A stretch of DNA of 64,000 nt, from NCBI GenBank assembly GCA_007026445.1, contig VDMD01000096.1, positions 1-64,000 on the forward strand. Direction: 5' to 3'. Below, in pieces: positions 17,535 through 24,616 of this stretch. The notes below the pieces were generated by a model, which saw only the letters and a list, made by a program, of their open reading frames with translations, had not been told where the DNA came from and did no database searches. Made by a program: the position numbers and the translations under genes. Source of the stretch: Schizophyllum amplum (taxonomy: Eukaryota; Basidiomycota; Agaricomycetes; Agaricales; Schizophyllaceae). Position 1 is the first letter of the stretch; every line of letters starts with the position of its first letter.

Positions 17535-18975
17535 TCAGGCGTGGCCGCGGACGGCAACGGGTTGGTATCTGCAACCAACATTAGAATGGGGATGCAGAAA
17601 AGATCGTATAGTGCTCACGGTTCCTCCAGATGTTTGGCCTCCTCCTCGGTCAATTCCCCATCGACGATACTTTCCTCAATGCGCTTGGTCGAGTTGATAC
17701 CAACAATGGGGCTGGTGACACTCCGCTGCACCCACGCCAGAGCGACCTGTAATGCTGTGAGCGAGTCACAAATTGCCCGGGCGGCGCAGACATACCTGGG
17801 ACATTGTCCACCCACGCTTCTTCGCGATCTCCTCAACGCGTGCGCGAATCTCGTTGCTCGCGTCGCCGGCCTGCCAGCCCATGTCGGAAAACAACTTCGT
17901 GCGCGCGGTATCCGTTTCGCCCAAAGAGCGCGCCAACAAGCCGCCACAGAGAGGCGATCACGGAATCACACCGATGGCGTGGTACTTGCAGTACGCCAAC
18001 ATCTCGCGCTCCTGAAGCCAATCTGGTCAGCACGACAATTGGGGTCTCGCGGTAGTTCAAAGACTGACCTCCTCGCGGTAGAGCAGCGAATACTCGTCTT
18101 GCATGCTCACAAACTTCGTCCATCCGTGCTTCTCGGCGACCTCATTGAGGAGCGCAAACTCCCAGGCGCGCATCGAGCTCGCGCCGATGTAGCGCACCTT
18201 GCCAGACTCGACGAGGTCGTGGAGCGCCTTCATCGTCTCCTCGGGCGGCGTGCTAGGGTCAAAGCGATGGATCTGGTAGAGGTCGATGTACGACGTGTTC
18301 AGGCGCGCGAGAGATCCTTCGACGTTGTTGAAGATGGACGCGCGAGAGAGGCCGGATTGGTTGATGTACTCCTTGCGGTCGTAGATACCAGGCGTGATGA
18401 AGGTCATGATATTGTGGTCGGCACCCTTGCCGACGAGGCCGTAGCACTTGGTCGCAATGACGATTTCTTCGCGAGGAATGTTGAACTGATAGAAAGAGTT
18501 TCAGTCAAGGCGAAAATATCGTGGCGATACCATCCCAGCACACCTTCTCTATGAATTTGGCCACGAGGCGCTCGGAGTCGCCGTTGGAATAGTTGTTGGC
18601 AGTGTCGAAAGTGCTGTCATCGACCCAGGTCAGTCACAATGGATCTGATGAAGGCCTAAATAATACTCACTTGATACCGCGATCCCAGGCCGCCTTCATG
18701 ACCGGGAGCGCATCGTCCTCGCCCTTGACCCATGCAAGCGACGGATCCGGAGCCTGCACATAGACAGACGAAGGTGAGTAGCAGTATGGGAGCTGCGGAT
18801 TAGCGCACGTACCGCCCACTTGGGGTTCCCGTAAGTCATCATACCCATCTATGTGACGATGCGTTAGTAAAAGCGATTCAGTACGCGGGCAGCGGGAAGT
18901 CAAGCCACTCACTATGGGCACGGAAACGCGCAATCCGCTCTTGCCGAGCTGAACATACTTGACTGGAGTAGACAT
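17535..18975 (-). pseudogene. Aldo-keto reductase interrupted by an in-frame stop
   Basis: Eight exons (18913-18975, 18813-18848, 18671-18753, 18544-18613, 18069-18485, 17796-18011, 17619-17746, 17535-17568) fit together in frame for 348 residues. Family blocks: MSTPVKYVQLGKSGLRVSVP, MGMMTYGNPKWA, FDTANNYSNGDSERLVAKFI (catalytic Asp and Tyr), DLYQIHRFDPSTPPEETMKA (catalytic His region) and VALAWVQRSVTSPIVGINST (cofactor loop). The enzymes reduce aldehydes or ketones with NADPH; this one resembles the fungal aryl-alcohol dehydrogenase group. In exon 6 the expected IPWSPL motif reads ATT CCG TGA TCG CCT: the Trp codon is TGA (17958-17960, codon 241). No alternative splice removes it cleanly. 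Everything downstream is intact, so this is a very young pseudogene, a null allele or a base error. Confidence 0.8.
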
Positions 18976-19041
18976 GGCGAAGCAAGTAATGAAGTCTCGA
19001 AGAAGGCGTTTGGTGTCTCTCTTGCGTCACCACGTCCCCTG

Positions 19042-19049
19042 CTTTTATA
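19042..19049 (-). promoter_or_regulatory. TATA box of the aldo-keto reductase gene
   Basis: TATAAAAG on the minus strand, 67 bases ahead of the reductase start at 18975. The inserted retroelement begins 40 bases further upstream (19089), so this core promoter is kept but everything beyond it is displaced. Confidence 0.5.
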
Positions 19050-19088
19050 GCAGAATTTATGGTTACCTGACGTCGCTATATTTTGTCG

Positions 19089-19278
19089 TGCGAGCTAAGG
19101 CACCGCTTGCGGTGCCTTTGCGGGAGTCAAGCGAAGCACGAGAACGGAGGCCGGCCCATAGCGCCGTGATGGGCGCTTCGGAAGGAAGCGCCGCCACGGT
19201 CACGCGCGCGGCGAACGCGTCGGCGCCACAATCGCTTCTCTGCCTTTGCCCTCAAAGCTCATAGGCTGTTTTCATTTG
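19089..19278 (+). repeat. Split direct repeat A1 (left end)
   Basis: 190 bases, identical to 21888-22077 except one A/G difference at 19274. It contains a perfect hairpin at 19097-19118 with arms AAGGCACCGC and GCGGTGCCTT and a two-base loop. Confidence 0.9.
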
Positions 19279-19389
19279 TTCTCCACGTATTCGACATCGA
19301 CAACCGCTCACCGCTGCCTCTCGACGACCCCGCTTTTCCGAATCACCAAACTCCGTTTTCACGCGCATATACCCAGCTTCTCTGGCGAC

Positions 19390-20670
19390 ATGTCTGGTGC
19401 CGCGATACTCCCCAACTCCGGCTTCCCCGTATCTACAGGCGTACCGATGGACTTCGACTTCGCTGCCTGGAAGGCAGACGTCGCCGAGGTCGAGAATTAT
19501 GCCCTCACGTTCGACGAGCGCAACGAACGCAACAAGGTCATTCAGATCAAAAACGACGCGAGCCGTGCGAAGACCACTCTGTGCATGGAAGACCCGGAGA
19601 AATACCCAGACACCGGCCCCTGCATGATCCCCCTCTACGCGAACACGGGAGCTGAGATCGGCCTCGCCACGCACATGACCCACCTCTGGTCGACGTTTGC
19701 GAGGTCCCTGCAGATGAAGATCAGCGAGACAGCGACGAAGCTAGCCGACGCCAAGATGAAGAAGAACGAACCGGCGCCAGCCGCCCTACTCGGTCCCCGT
19801 ACGCACCGTCCCATGGGTGCTATCATTGACGCCGCCATCCCAGAGTGCTACCTCATCGCTATTGGCTACGGGATCGTCCCCCCGCTCACCTTCTTCGACG
19901 ACAAAGTCATGGCCACCATCGCTAACATGGCTTCCCTGCCCATGACAGCTCTGTCTGGCATTCGATTCGCTGCAGGCACCAAGGCACCACGAATCGTCGA
20001 CTTCGCCGCCCTCGTCAAGCGCGGCTTCGCCCCTAACGACTTCTCTATCGAAGACATCACCTTCTCCGACTACAACAAGTGGATGGACCGACTCATCAAA
20101 GGTGTCCGCGCGCGCACCGACTTCACCAAGATCGTACAACCGGGCGAATGCTTCCTCGACACCGAGTTGACAAATCACCTCAAGTATTTCATCGGAGCGC
20201 GGGACGCCGAGAAGCTCTACCCCGCGTGGTACCCGCTCGCACGCCATTTCCTCTACAACGTGATAAACGGGATGGCTTTCGACACGGAGGAGTACAACAG
20301 GGAATGGACGGTGGAACGGGCGACAGCGCGCGACGACGTCGCGAGCTACCGGAGTCCGTGGGTCCCCGGCGGTAGGCAGTTCGACCCGGCGCTCGGCCAC
20401 GACGGGCCTGCCGCAGCTGCGGCTGCCGCACAAAGCGCATATACTCAGGTGGAAGTCACGCGCGCGTACAGTGACACTGACTACGCCCCGCGCAAGGCCC
20501 CGAGGACGTCCTACGGCGGATGGGCAGGTGCCGCACGCGGCGACGAGTGGGACGACCACCCTGGATACGCCCACGGCGCCCCCGTCGCTCTCGCTCCCCT
20601 ACCAGCCGGGACTGCCGCCGCTGATGCCGACCTCCGCGCCACAAGCCACTCGCCCCCAATTTGTCTGTAA
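19390..20670 (+). CDS. Gag-like ORF1 of the split-repeat retroelement
   Basis: 426 residues from ATG 19390 (MSGAAILPNSGFPVSTG). The frame is open further left to repeat A1 but without an ATG. The middle is helical and hydrophobic-patterned, for example GPCMIPLYANTGAEIGLATH, PMGAIIDAAIPECYLIAIGY and EKLYPAWYPLARHFLYNVIN. The C-terminus is Ala/Gly/Tyr-rich and disordered (SYGGWAGAARGDEWDDHPGY). No zinc knuckle or protease motif is seen. Its place directly after A1 is that of the gag gene in Ngaro elements, and the function is inferred from that position. A capsid role or another nucleic-acid-binding role is possible. The frame has no stop or shift, so the product may still be made. Confidence 0.6.
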   Translation: MSGAAILPNSGFPVSTGVPMDFDFAAWKADVAEVENYALTFDERNERNKVIQIKNDASRAKTTLCMEDPEKYPDTGPCMIPLYANTGAEIGLATHMTHLWSTFARSLQMKISETATKLADAKMKKNEPAPAALLGPRTHRPMGAIIDAAIPECYLIAIGYGIVPPLTFFDDKVMATIANMASLPMTALSGIRFAAGTKAPRIVDFAALVKRGFAPNDFSIEDITFSDYNKWMDRLIKGVRARTDFTKIVQPGECFLDTELTNHLKYFIGARDAEKLYPAWYPLARHFLYNVINGMAFDTEEYNREWTVERATARDDVASYRSPWVPGGRQFDPALGHDGPAAAAAAAQSAYTQVEVTRAYSDTDYAPRKAPRTSYGGWAGAARGDEWDDHPGYAHGAPVALAPLPAGTAAADADLRATSHSPPICL

Positions 20671-20940
20671 TTGACTTGTGAGTATTCCTCTACTCTGTCG
20701 CTTCCCCCTTTGCACCAATGCCCCTGCTCCTTGCACCTCCTGCTCCCCCTTTGTGTTTCGGACTTACTTATCGAACTCGAACCGTCACGTGCCGCGCGTG
20801 TCGGTTAGTTCCGAGCGGCACCGGAGCGGGTCATGCCCGCTCTCATGTGACCTATGTTCGACATCGAACAAACCCCCTTTCCCACAGTTCCTTCTCATTT
20901 CAACTCCCGAGGCTGCCTGGAACCAGCCTCTCCTTTCACT

Positions 20941-21228
20941 TGCGTTAGCCCTATGGGCGCGCTCATCACTGCGTTAGCCCCATGGGCGCGCTCATCACTG
21001 CGTTAGCCCAGTCGGCGCGCTCATCACTGTGTTAGCCTACGGGCGCACTCATCACTGCGTTAGCCCTATGGGCGCGCTCATCACTGCGTTAGCCCTATGG
21101 GCGCGCTCATCACTGCGTTAGCCCCATGGGCGCGCTCATCACTGCGTTAGCCCCATGGGCGCGCTCTTCACTGCGTTAGCCCAGTCGGCGCGCTCATCAC
21201 TGTGTTAGCCTACGGGCGCGCTCATCAC
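20941..21228. repeat. Minisatellite, ten 28-29 base units with higher-order pattern
   Basis: Ten units of the type TGCGTTAGCC...GCTCATCAC. Variants differ at the centre: CTATGG, CCATGG, CAGTCG and a one-base-shorter TACGG form. Their order is 1-2-3-4 then 1-1-2-2-3-4, so a four-unit block was copied as a whole and then expanded within. It lies in the internal non-coding part of the retroelement. Confidence 0.9.
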
Positions 21229-21606
21229 ATGCTGCGGGCTCTATGTAAGAGCACGCCCTCATCATTTGAACAGGTGACAAGCGGTTCGGGCATGCACCGG
21301 GTACACGTCGTACTTCGCTCCTCACCCCCGGCATACTGCGGACTCCATCACGAAGCAGCGCACGTACGCGCAGCCTCGCCACTACCTTTACTTCAGTTTA
21401 AGTATCCTGCTACGAATTCTAATCCCCCGAGTCTCCCCCTTATCGACATATGGATGTGTACCAAGAGACCGGAGTCTGCGCATGGCACGCGTCGTGAGTT
21501 TCATCCTCTCTCAGGCTCGGTTTGGGCCTCGCGGGCCCGCAGGGCCTTCGCACCCGCGCGCAGCGTTCGCATACTTATGGCTCCGCTGGGAGCCTTCGCT
21601 CGTTTT

Positions 21607-21887
21607 GGGCAGCACGGGTTTGCTTCAGGCCCTTCCGCTTGGCCTGGGGCTGTGCCCGGCTTCTGCTACAGCGTTCAGTCGGCCGGGCCGCGGTTTCGGT
21701 AGGTGGTTGTAGGCGCGCGTCACGTGACCCACGAGCACGCGCTGCCGCCGTCCGTCCCCCGCGGCCGGCCGACCCCGACAAACCCCAGCCCTCGATGAGA
21801 GCTGGTATTTCTCTCCTCTCCCCTGTTCCCGCACGCCTACCGTCTCCCTAGACGCGTCCTAGGCCTCTCGCCCACGGCTTCGCTTGA
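21607..21887 (+). repeat. Split direct repeat B1
   Basis: 281 bases, matching 22118-22398 over its whole length. It ends GCTTCGCTTGA, directly joined to A2. Confidence 0.9.
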
Positions 21888-22077
21888 TGCGAGCTAAGGC
21901 ACCGCTTGCGGTGCCTTTGCGGGAGTCAAGCGAAGCACGAGAACGGAGGCCGGCCCATAGCGCCGTGATGGGCGCTTCGGAAGGAAGCGCCGCCACGGTC
22001 ACGCGCGCGGCGAACGCGTCGGCGCCACAATCGCTTCTCTGCCTTTGCCCTCAAAGCTCATAGGCTGTTTTCGTTTG
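21888..22077 (+). repeat. Split direct repeat A2
   Basis: 190 bases, second copy of A1. With the end of B1 it forms nested inverted repeats: outer arms GCTTCGCTTGA (21877-21887) and TCAAGCGAAGC (21926-21936), inner arms as in A1 (21896-21917). In this class of element the B1-A2 joint equals the joint of the circular form, so it is the likely recombination site. Confidence 0.9.
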
Positions 22078-22117
22078 CCCACCCTCCTCTTCCCTCTGTA
22101 TGACTCGCTAACGCTCG

Positions 22118-22398
22118 GGGCAGCACGGGTTTGCTTCAGGCCCTTCCGCTTGGCCTGGGGCTGTGCCCGGCTTCTGCTACAGCGTTCAGTCGGCCGGGCC
22201 GCGGTTTCGGTAGGTGGTTGTAGGCGCGCGTCACGTGACCCACGAGCACGCGCTGCCGCCGTCCGTCCCCCGCGGCCGGCCGACCCCGACAAACCCCAGC
22301 CCTCGATGAGAGCTGGTATTTCTCTCCTCTCCCCTGTTCCCGCACGCCTACCGTCTCCCTAGACGCGTCCTAGGCCTCTCGCCCACGGCTTCGCTTGA
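22118..22398 (+). repeat. Split direct repeat B2 (right end)
   Basis: 281 bases, second copy of B1. Homology stops after GCTTCGCTTGA at 22398, the right boundary of the element. Confidence 0.9.
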
Positions 22399-22806
22399 AT
22401 GCACGCTGACAGATGTCTGCCGGAGAAGACGCGCGTCGTGAGCCGAGTTCATGAGAGGCAGGAAGGAAGCCCCTTTCGTGGCGCGCCGTCCGATTCGGAT
22501 GTCATTAATAGTTACTGACACCAGTGACAGAGCCAACCGTGACGGTTTCACCGCCCCAGATAGGATTACATACATGTGTTTGCAGCTAAACAGCGAAGCC
22601 TGAGAAGAACGAAGAAGACAAGAGCAGGTTTTGGTGTAGCTGGTCGCGAGAGGTCGGGTACCTAAAAGGAGGAATTCGATGCTGGAAAGCCACGTGGCGA
22701 CGGGTGGCGGGCCGATGTTGGGACGCGTTCGAACTTTGCGCCTATTTCTCGCGGCCATTTAGCATTGCGTACAGGCAGAGCGCTCCACCAAATGCAGCCA
22801 TTCATC
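22399..22806 (+). promoter_or_regulatory. Upstream region of COG8
   Basis: Unique sequence between the retroelement and COG8; no gene or strong core promoter motif seen. The element ends about 400 bases ahead of the COG8 start. Confidence 0.4.
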
Positions 22807-24616
22807 ATGGACGTAGGCGCGTACGCATATCTTCATATCGTTTGTCAGTAATGACCGATCTGCAGACACCACGAACCTTCCCGATCTCCTCTCCACCGAG
22901 CCGCTCTCGAATGCACAGCAGGCGTACCTCACGCATCTGACTTCGCTTCCCCTCGACAATCTCGTCACCGAGCCCAGTTCGCTGCAAACACAGGCCCATC
23001 ATCTCACCTCCAGCCTTACTTCTCTCACGCATACCTCATACCCCATATTCGTCGCCCTCCATCAAACAACCAAGTCGCTCTCGTCCTCTCTCGATATCTT
23101 TGCTGATTCGTTGGACGGGCTGCTCGACAGCAGCCTCCCCGCACTCGAAGAAGCAGCTGCCGGCTGGCACACCCGAACCGATACCGTCGTGCGGGAACGC
23201 AACAAGGCTCGTGCCGTTCTCGAGCAGCACGACAAGCTGCGCGATCTCCTCGACATTCCGCTACTCATCGATACCTGTGTACGCAATGGCTTCTTTGCCG
23301 AGGCTCTCCAACTCGCCGCGCACGCAGAGGCCGCTGCCGCCGCGCTCCCGCACCCACCCCCGATCCTACGCTCGGTGCTTGCGGAGGTGCATGCATCCAT
23401 AGTGCAGATGTTACGCGCGCTACTAGGGACGCTACACGAGCCCGCACGGAAGCTCCCTGCCCTATACAAGGCAGTTGCGTTTCTCAGGCGCATGCCCGCG
23501 TTCGCGCCCGAAGCGCTTGACGTCGACCCGGAGGAGCAGCTCGCATTGGCGTTCTTGGGCGGTCGACACACATGTGTGCGCGCCGCGCTGGAGCCTGTAG
23601 CACGCGACGTGCGCAGGCTGGCGTCCTCGCAGGCACCCCTTGGCGAGCGCGAGCGGGAGGACCTAACGCGCGGCGTGCGCAAATACATCGACCTATGGCG
23701 AGAAGGCGTGCATGACGTCGTCACACAATATACCAGCATCTTCCTCCCCACATCCGCCGCCTCCACCCCCGCCTCCGACCCGCCCCCCGTGTTGCACGCG
23801 CTGCTATCCGCGTATGCGTCCAATGCACTTACAGCACACCTCCTGCCGGTGCTGCGCGCGGCACTGCCGCAAGTGCCGCTCTCCGCGCTCCCTCCCGTCC
23901 TGACGCAGCTTACGTACTGCGCAACCGCCTTCGCGCGCTCCGGCCTCGATTTCCGCACCGCGGTTGCGGGGCTCGCCGCCGAGGCTGTTCGTGGGGCGGT
24001 CGCAGGCGACTTCGCCAGGGCCGCGAGGACGTTTGCGGGCGAGTGTACGCGGGCGAGAGCGTCGCTTGCGCCGCCCTCGAGGAGCAGCTTGGATGGTAGG
24101 CGGAGCTTGGATGCGAGGGGGAGCCTTGATGTGCGCGGGAGTCTCGATCTGCAACGACAACAACCTTCCACTTGGCTCGCGCCACCGAATGCGCCCAATC
24201 CGCGCCCCGAGGATGTTCTGGCGGGCCCGTCACACGTGCCTCCGGCAGCGCTCGCAGCGTACCCTCCACTAGCAACCCTGGCAAATGGTCTCTTGACTGC
24301 GCTCAACGGACTGCGGCTGTTGGCGCCGGTCGAGGTGCTACCGGCACTGCGTGTCGCGCTGGACGCTGCGCTCGCGGAGGCGGGTGGTGCGCTGCTGGGC
24401 TATGTGTCGGCGGCGGCTGGGAAGGAGAAGGACGCGGGCATGCGGGGAGGGGAGATGTTCTTTGATGTGCTGGTGCCGTATATACGACGGGCGCTGGTGG
24501 AGGGGGTGTATGGGGAAAAGGTTGGGGAGGAGTGGAAGGAGGAAGAGTTGGCGGGAGTCGTACGAGATTGGGAGGCGTGGCGGGCGGCGTCGGTGGTTAG
24601 TTCGCCGGTGGAATGA
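22807..24616 (+). CDS. COG8: Conserved oligomeric Golgi complex subunit 8
   Basis: The main exon reads from about 22871 to 24616 without interruption: TTNLPDLLSTEPLSNAQQAY, LTHLTSLPLDNLVTEPSSL, then a heptad-patterned region (LHQTTKSLSSSLDIFADSLD, ERNKARAVLEQHDKLRDLLD) and DIPLLIDTCVRNGFFAEALQ, which is the typical Dor1/Cog8 N-terminal block. COG8 belongs to the Golgi tethering complex that recycles glycosylation enzymes. The last third has an insertion with SLDxRxSLD repeats (GSLDVRGSLDL) and a family-like end. The start is uncertain: ATG 22807 with a ten-base first exon and a GC-AG intron (22817-22865) would give MDVDTTNLPDLL; no GT donor gives the right phase with a normal intron length. 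Confidence 0.8.

Follow-up and report, generated by a model that had tools for sequence, protein, structure and literature searches.

A gag-only, repeat-complete Ngaro-type element in Schizophyllum amplum and a candidate foldback at its B-A junction

The 64,000-bp window analyzed here (positions 1 to 64,000 of contig VDMD01000096.1, Schizophyllum amplum assembly GCA_007026445.1) harbors a 3,310-bp element at positions 19089-22398, in which two repeats, A and B, and one gag-like open reading frame (ORF) follow the order A1 - ORF - B1 - A2 - 40-bp spacer - B2. The A copies are 190 bp long and differ at 1/190 bases (position 186), and the B copies are 281 bp long and differ at 0/281; exact repeats of these lengths exclude chance. 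B1 directly adjoins A2, and A2 and B2 are separated by 40 bp that are identical in the copy at C237 and in a solo repeat at C112, and 85-90% identical in the six other loci with a detected spacer. The long repeats in 18500-23000 are all direct, inverted pairs of ≥20 bases being absent there, and gag is flanked by split direct repeats in place of long terminal repeats (LTRs). The ORF is open from a TTG at 19246 to 20670 (426 aa from its ATG at 19390), and its product had no Pfam match. From ORF to B1 the interval measures 936 bases and includes 293 bases of a 29-bp tandem repeat; reverse transcriptase (RT) and recombinase queries found no match in this interval. The original prediction, made from the letters of the window, had described A and B as each present twice, B1 as abutting A2 with one mismatch seen in A, the gag-like ORF as open and the interior as lacking space for RT, RNase H and recombinase. 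The repeats were confirmed base for base, the frame is open over its 426 aa, and two stretches are missing from the interior in comparison with a longer relative in the same genome.

Searches of the 49.65-Mb assembly (309 contigs), which scored the best candidates only, revealed the gag-only body at at least three loci with different flanks: the window, C237, and C212. The C237 copy spans 3,339 bp, excluding a 939-bp insertion in its A1, and is 99.9% identical over the gag part. The C212 copy, which measures 2,730 bp and is 98% identical in its gag portion, reads A1-gag-tail-B and has neither A2 nor B2, so that B1-A2-B2 is present in 2/3 gag-only copies. The expectation of several 3.3-kb copies was thus borne out for the gag-only body at two further loci, with the single B of C212 as the departure from it. 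Rather than being found only here, A and B recur at other loci, including an A-spacer-B solo at C112 (502 bp) and a diverged one at C1 (545 bp). A relative at C269 (L013) is 5,998 bp long and has the full repeat layout, related ends, and a gag 48% identical to that of the window, which runs on into zinc knuckles where the window ORF ends. Its pol consists of remnants of RT, RNase H, and recombinase, with RT mostly gone and recombinase spread over frames. Full-length relatives with the same ends had been named as support; L013 supplies the layout, the related ends, and remnants of all three enzymes, but it is no intact helper. The split-direct-repeat order A1-ORFs-B1-A2-B2 is also found in L033 and L034 and, within the stretch examined, in L031.

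The window element and L013 are collinear except for two stretches absent from the former. The first (L013 3662 to 4230) covers the end of gag with its zinc knuckles and the first RT exon, and the second (L013 4788 to 7196) covers the remaining RT, RNase H, and recombinase, after which the match resumes at window 21510. The first joint immediately precedes a GTGAGT that matches the RT exon end in L013, and the segment retained between the joints comprises a putative RT intron and the minisatellite. Window 21234-21509 had no match to L013, and the match of the tail before B1 to L012 starts at 21479. Both joints are common to the C237 copy and, bar point changes, to the C212 copy, which implies that their shared ancestor was already gag-only. 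In our reading, two internal deletions would have taken out the zinc knuckles of gag together with RT, RNase H, and the tyrosine recombinase, while A1 and B1-A2-B2, and presumably other cis signals, would have been retained.

Insertion sites provided direct evidence of movement. At C1, a near-identical second copy of the window site has both flanks fused base to base: the left flank aligned over 600/600 bases at 99.5%, and the right flank continued from the very next base at 96.2%. Relative to this exact empty site, the insertion duplicated 0 bases and removed 0. C117 is likewise an exact empty site of the C237 copy (flanks aligned at 90% and 96%), and no target-site duplication accompanies these 2/3 gag-only copies. 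At both empty sites we saw no core common to circle junction and target. The C212 site is complex: its A1-side flank is intact on C294, where the B-side flank is discontinued, and L010 has other repeats on that side. For L033, a second copy of the A1-side flank was not found in the assembly. Because the second copies of both window flanks are contiguous on C1, the assembly is taken to hold both alleles of such sites, and we infer that the second site copies of the window and C237 insertions are the other alleles. The near identity of A and B within the element indicates that the window insertion is probably recent.

The gag ORF seems to have been under constraint. Between the window and C212 copies, 14 synonymous changes (303 sites) and 11 nonsynonymous changes (975 sites) give a per-site ratio of 0.24 (Fisher p 4.5e-4). 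These changes are unevenly distributed, with 11 synonymous and 3 nonsynonymous in codons 1-375 and 3 synonymous and 8 nonsynonymous in the tail (codons 376-427). As both copies share the deletions, the changes postdate the loss of RT and recombinase. Judged from these substitutions, selection seems to have retained Gag following the loss of RT, hinting that the short element has some use for the capsid-like region, whether this acts in cis or against helpers. Among the candidates sharing most words, a protein search with gag matched the window's own protein alone, and a search with a five-sequence alignment added one further relative of 344 aa.

Table 1. Positions of the features of the element in the window.
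Feature	Position	Strand	Basis or remark
A1, left split direct repeat	19089-19278	+	repeat comparison; exact insertion boundary 19088/19089 from empty site
gag-like ORF, 426 aa	19390-20670	+	stops at first Cys of the relatives' zinc-knuckle region
putative retained RT intron (GTGAGT ... ACAG)	20678-21273	+	inferred from position relative to relatives
29-bp minisatellite, 10.1 copies, within putative intron	20936-21228	+	
tail before B1	21510-21606	+	collinear with post-recombinase region of C269 relative (L013)
B1	21607-21887	+	repeat comparison
B1-A2 foldback (modelled)	21877-21936	+	B-A boundary at 21887/21888
foldback outer stem	21877-21887 with 21926-21936		then 5x5 internal loop
foldback inner stem	21893-21904 with 21909-21920		4-nt loop
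A2	21888-22077	+	repeat comparison
40-bp spacer between A2 and B2	22078-22117	+	
B2, right end	22118-22398	+	exact insertion boundary 22398/22399 from empty site

Upstream of A1 lies an ORF on the minus strand (window 18667-18975), which starts 113 bp from the element, so that the element sits upstream of it; its flank matches the genome at several diverged places. By eye we take this piece to resemble an aldo/keto reductase, and it had no Pfam match. Further arrangements of the repeats occur elsewhere in the assembly. The 939-bp sequence inserted into A1 at C237 (L009 5597-6535) has 15-bp terminal inverted repeats (AGGACCCCTGATAAT), an 8-bp target duplication, and two ~407-bp tandem halves that are 78% alike, giving it the appearance of a miniature inverted-repeat transposable element. 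Minisatellites with units of about 28-31 bp are present at window 20936-21228, L031 3371-3582, L013 4542-4954, and L014 5011-5375 (for L013 and L014, Tandem Repeats Finder also gives longer periods of 41 bp and up), and these Ngaro-family arrays share a relative place, the putative intron right before the catalytic RT motif. Insertions that run A1-...-B and lack A2-B2 are found at L010, L014, and, if they are one element, L040 plus L039 (C1); L037 (C157) is of the same type, with the B end alone. Together with the A-spacer-B solos, such forms are the two products expected of recombination between the B1-A2 and B2-A1 junctions, or of homologous recombination. L012 5721-7518 (C112) is rearranged into B1-A2-B2, a 743-bp segment and an inverted A, and the 743-bp segment is inverted again at L012 1-743. 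Two A-start fragments (A positions 4-72, 99%) at C179:304787-304855 and C179:109851-109919 (L027 and L028) have identical left flanks as far as compared, with neither spacer nor B detected within 7 kb. A separate gag-like ORF at L032 1603-2637 (C246; 344 aa), which recurs as a match alone at C60:39003-39866, did not match RT, and direct repeats were not reported within the 4.5 kb around it; it is possibly a domesticated gag.

A short element without enzymes of its own raises the question of a helper. Relatives with long open frames occur twice at C299 and once at C286, and C109, C1, and C157 belong to the first C299 family. Neither the C299 nor the C286 places are among the whole-element matches in the genome, and the window element had no match to L031 at E 0.1. 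A public protein (P0001) is 91% identical to the C299 RT/RNase H; the top PDB structural matches of its model (mean pLDDT, the predicted local distance difference test, 75) were reverse transcriptases (best E 1.1e-11). By homology and predicted fold, the enzyme of the autonomous-type relatives is therefore identified as an RT/RNase H. At the sequence level, the RT profile retrieved ribosomal proteins alone among PDB sequences (E 0.6 or worse), and Pfam on 25 RT-profile members reported RVT_1 once (E 0.064), alongside three unrelated or viral-polymerase models. The recombinase assignment is weaker than that of RT/RNase H. Weak matches were obtained in 1/3 proteins (L034: PF00589, E 0.12; phrog_1 integrase, E 0.006), NCBIfam gave nothing, and the recombinase profile found nothing relevant among PDB sequences; an R, HxxR, Y pattern that we take to be that of a recombinase was identified by eye. 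The helper may have been lost, may be missing from the assembly, or may belong to a family whose ends differ.

Most probably, the 3,310-bp window element is non-autonomous, derives from a Ngaro-type retrotransposon, and was mobilized in trans after two internal deletions. Its RNA would be reverse-transcribed and the resulting circular DNA inserted, both by Ngaro enzymes supplied in trans, with B1-A2 serving as the template from which the circle acquires its B-A junction, and the retained capsid part of Gag may aid its own RNA or join helper particles. Several observations count against this interpretation. An intact helper with matching ends was not found in the assembly, the relatives with related ends (L013, L021, and L022) are broken by deleted RT or by stops, and the families with long open frames carry different ends from those of the window element. 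The gag-only copies found number three only, as a lower bound, and the selection signal comes from one effective pair, given that the C237 gag is one change from that of the window; the Gag fold from a two-sequence alignment is unusable (mean pLDDT 32). The parasite of a parasite envisaged in the original prediction accordingly holds as a non-autonomous form that moved after its deletions, whereas its mobilization in trans, with no intact same-end helper found, is a deduction.

The missing helper is also what one would expect had an autonomous Ngaro simply decayed in place, the other loci being duplications or remnants and the short form never having transposed. Deletion products of other shapes do exist, such as L014, which has an RT piece and no protein-level gag match, and L010, which lacks A2-B2. 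Yet the same two joints at three differently flanked loci, together with two exact empty sites, require movement after the deletions, and we reject decay in place of the window and C237 copies as very improbable. Even less credible is that the ORF is a host or domesticated gene lying between the repeats by chance: the low nonsynonymous to synonymous ratio (0.24) would suit a gene, and the ORF at C246 without an RT match might be one, but the window ORF is missing from the near-identical second copy of the site, lies inside the inserted unit, and accompanies A and B at three places. The empty sites thus dispose of a host gene conserved at this locus. A subtler alternative concerns what the element does rather than how it arose. 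In yeast copy-number control, a truncated Ty1 Gag interferes with particles, and a Gag without zinc knuckles could likewise act mainly against helper particles, making the element a restriction element and not a simple passenger. The ORF ends exactly ahead of the zinc knuckles, its first 375 codons are conserved (11 synonymous, 3 nonsynonymous), and no intact matching helper was found, all of which this account would accommodate; the same pattern is explained by a Gag that serves its own RNA, and we consider restriction rather unlikely. Mobilization in trans remains our preferred reading.

At the junction where B meets A, the final 11 bases of B can pair with a stretch 38 bases into A, of which they are the reverse complement, and a further hairpin lies between the two (Table 1). 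In the integrated element this pairing is local at B1-A2 alone, and a circle would add B2-A1. We compared the last 14 bases of B with the first 120 of A in six families (2000 shuffles each). The best complementarity lay at offset 38 in the window, L013, and L014, at 46 in L031, and at 47 in L033, each reached in ≤4/2000 shuffles. Adjacent segments drawn from the 64-kb window outside the element gave the score of 11 seen in the window, L013, L014, and L031 in 5/20,000 draws, and the score of 9 seen in L033 in 118/20,000. Folding of 72-base junctions yielded z values of -6.6, -7.2, -7.9, -5.9, and -3.4 in five families (0/300 shuffles each), and the opposite strand folds about equally well. In the model for the window's clade, an 11-bp outer stem encloses a 5x5 core that starts at the B-A boundary, and inside this core an inner stem of 12 bp is closed by a loop of 4 nt. 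Minimum-energy folds add a few core pairs, and in the five families the end of the outer stem coincides with the boundary or is no more than two bases from it. Covariation was assessed on seven junctions from the clade to which the window element belongs (161 cells), of which rows L010, L011, L014, and L015 join a B end and an A start from one element that are non-adjacent there. The modelled structure pairs 96.9% of the cells, three base pairs carry changes in both partners (one of the three joins B to A), and the covariation score was 0.161 against a shuffled mean of 0.086 (0/500), with the structure slid along giving ≤0.07. As an RT/RNase H alignment searched by tblastn found no relative in viral contigs (0/34 pattern matches) or prokaryote contigs (0/33), sampling of the foldback is limited to this one fungal genome.

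We tentatively propose that Ngaro-type elements could insert via a folded single-strand B-A site, the recombinase joining the folded strand to an arbitrary target without a shared core, such that gag-only forms could spread needing little in cis besides this junction and Gag. The recombinase would recognize the folded junction by its plan of stem, unpaired core, stem, and loop. The family L034 speaks against generality: its complementarity fails (523/2000 shuffles, best match at offset 36), and its junction folds no better than shuffled sequence (z +0.38, 184/300 shuffles); a 4-bp ATAG at both of its ends would fit a short core there. Because the window, L013, and L014 are interrelated, independent support amounts to three lineages versus one. 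Nor is covariation uniformly favorable, with 2/5 measures not favoring the foldback: two-sided pair changes (3) hardly exceed the shuffled mean of 2.7 (351/500 as high), further pair types (4) fall below their shuffled mean of 6.6 (500/500 as high), and the double changes all trace to one subfamily split (L012, L013, and L015 versus the rest). Alternatively, the foldback could act in RNA, in packaging, dimerization, strand transfer during reverse transcription, or termination, and not as a DNA site. B1-A2 would sit within the transcript, hairpins are commonly used in such roles, and both strands fold about equally well, which makes this possible, albeit not probable. Against an RNA role, the boundary, which is the insertion point, lies at or very near the outer-stem end in the five folding families, and where subfamilies differ in a pair both partners have changed (GC to AT), 1 of the 161 cells being G-U and 5 lacking a pairing. 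Tyrosine recombinases usually bind inverted arms 6-8 bp apart, and the complementarity of the B end to inner A might represent ordinary binding sites of this kind on double-stranded circle DNA. With arms 38-47 bp apart, the boundary off-centre, and the inner stem left without explanation, we find such duplex sites somewhat doubtful.

Its repeat layout and a gag related to Ngaro copies of the same genome place the window element with Ngaro, a group with fungal, vertebrate, and Cafeteria members and one half of the Ngaro/PAT type originally proposed. PAT was rejected: a passage of PMC4157794 names methyltransferase as the feature separating PAT from Ngaro, and no methyltransferase was seen among Pfam matches in the proteins scanned, a weak test since Pfam missed RT too; internal repeats follow the recombinase region in L013, L033, and L034, as in Ngaro. 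Unlike Ngaro, the window element encodes neither a recombinase nor RT and RNase H, the latter two of which are present in its relatives, and its gag is cut ahead of the zinc knuckles. For Cafeteria, PMC8547959 reports AB repeats as solos and Ngaro copies that lack ORF1; type 2b elements there represent the opposite case, the loss of ORF1 (a putative gag). A passage of PMC6681497 describes SIRE of Trypanosoma cruzi as a short non-autonomous form corresponding to A2-B2 of VIPER; it is a comparable derivative of split direct repeats, which L011 and L015 resemble, but in that description it has no gag and no A1/B1 pair, unlike the window element.

Plant TR-GAG elements combine terminal repeats and a gag domain without pol, and are of the LTR type that uses a DDE integrase. 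By this definition, they are alike in principle and the nearest analogue in kind, whereas the window element has split direct repeats and would depend on a tyrosine recombinase. The junction in turn recalls integron attC sites, in which, according to a passage of PMC2727003, boxes surround an unpaired spacer, structure is kept over sequence, and strand exchange takes place in the outer (R) box. The plan of stem, unpaired central spacer, stem, and terminal loop is shared with what is described there, with family-specific sequence (5/6 families). By contrast, attC sites are bacterial, and no extrahelical bases were identified in the Ngaro junctions. DIRS1-like elements are described in PMC3266345 as recombining, without duplication, through a circular junction of 3 bp that matches the target; at the window and C237 empty sites we saw no such shared bases.

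A literature search, in which most subscription papers were not covered, returned SIRE and found no description of a gag-only, repeat-complete Ngaro, and such a form is not described in passages of PMC9210276, PMC12477816, PMC3266345, PMC8498967, PMC2727003, PMC3783388, PMC6681497, PMC8547959, or PMC4157794. The survey of fungal tyrosine-recombinase elements in PMC3783388 required each element to have one or more of RT, RNase H, tyrosine recombinase, and methyltransferase, and this entry rule places gag-only forms outside its scope. At the level of titles and abstract beginnings, with fuller text consulted in the cited papers, no Ngaro or DIRS element was encountered for which a hairpin or attC-like site is described.

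The gag-only element is the solid result, and the folded junction, a hypothesis, is the more consequential lead. A gag-carrying, repeat-complete, and enzyme-free Ngaro derivative brings to the tyrosine-recombinase order a kind of parasitism already familiar among LTR elements. To our knowledge, the integration of DIRS-order elements is poorly known, and exact empty sites combined with the foldback at the B-A junction offer a concrete substrate for testing it.

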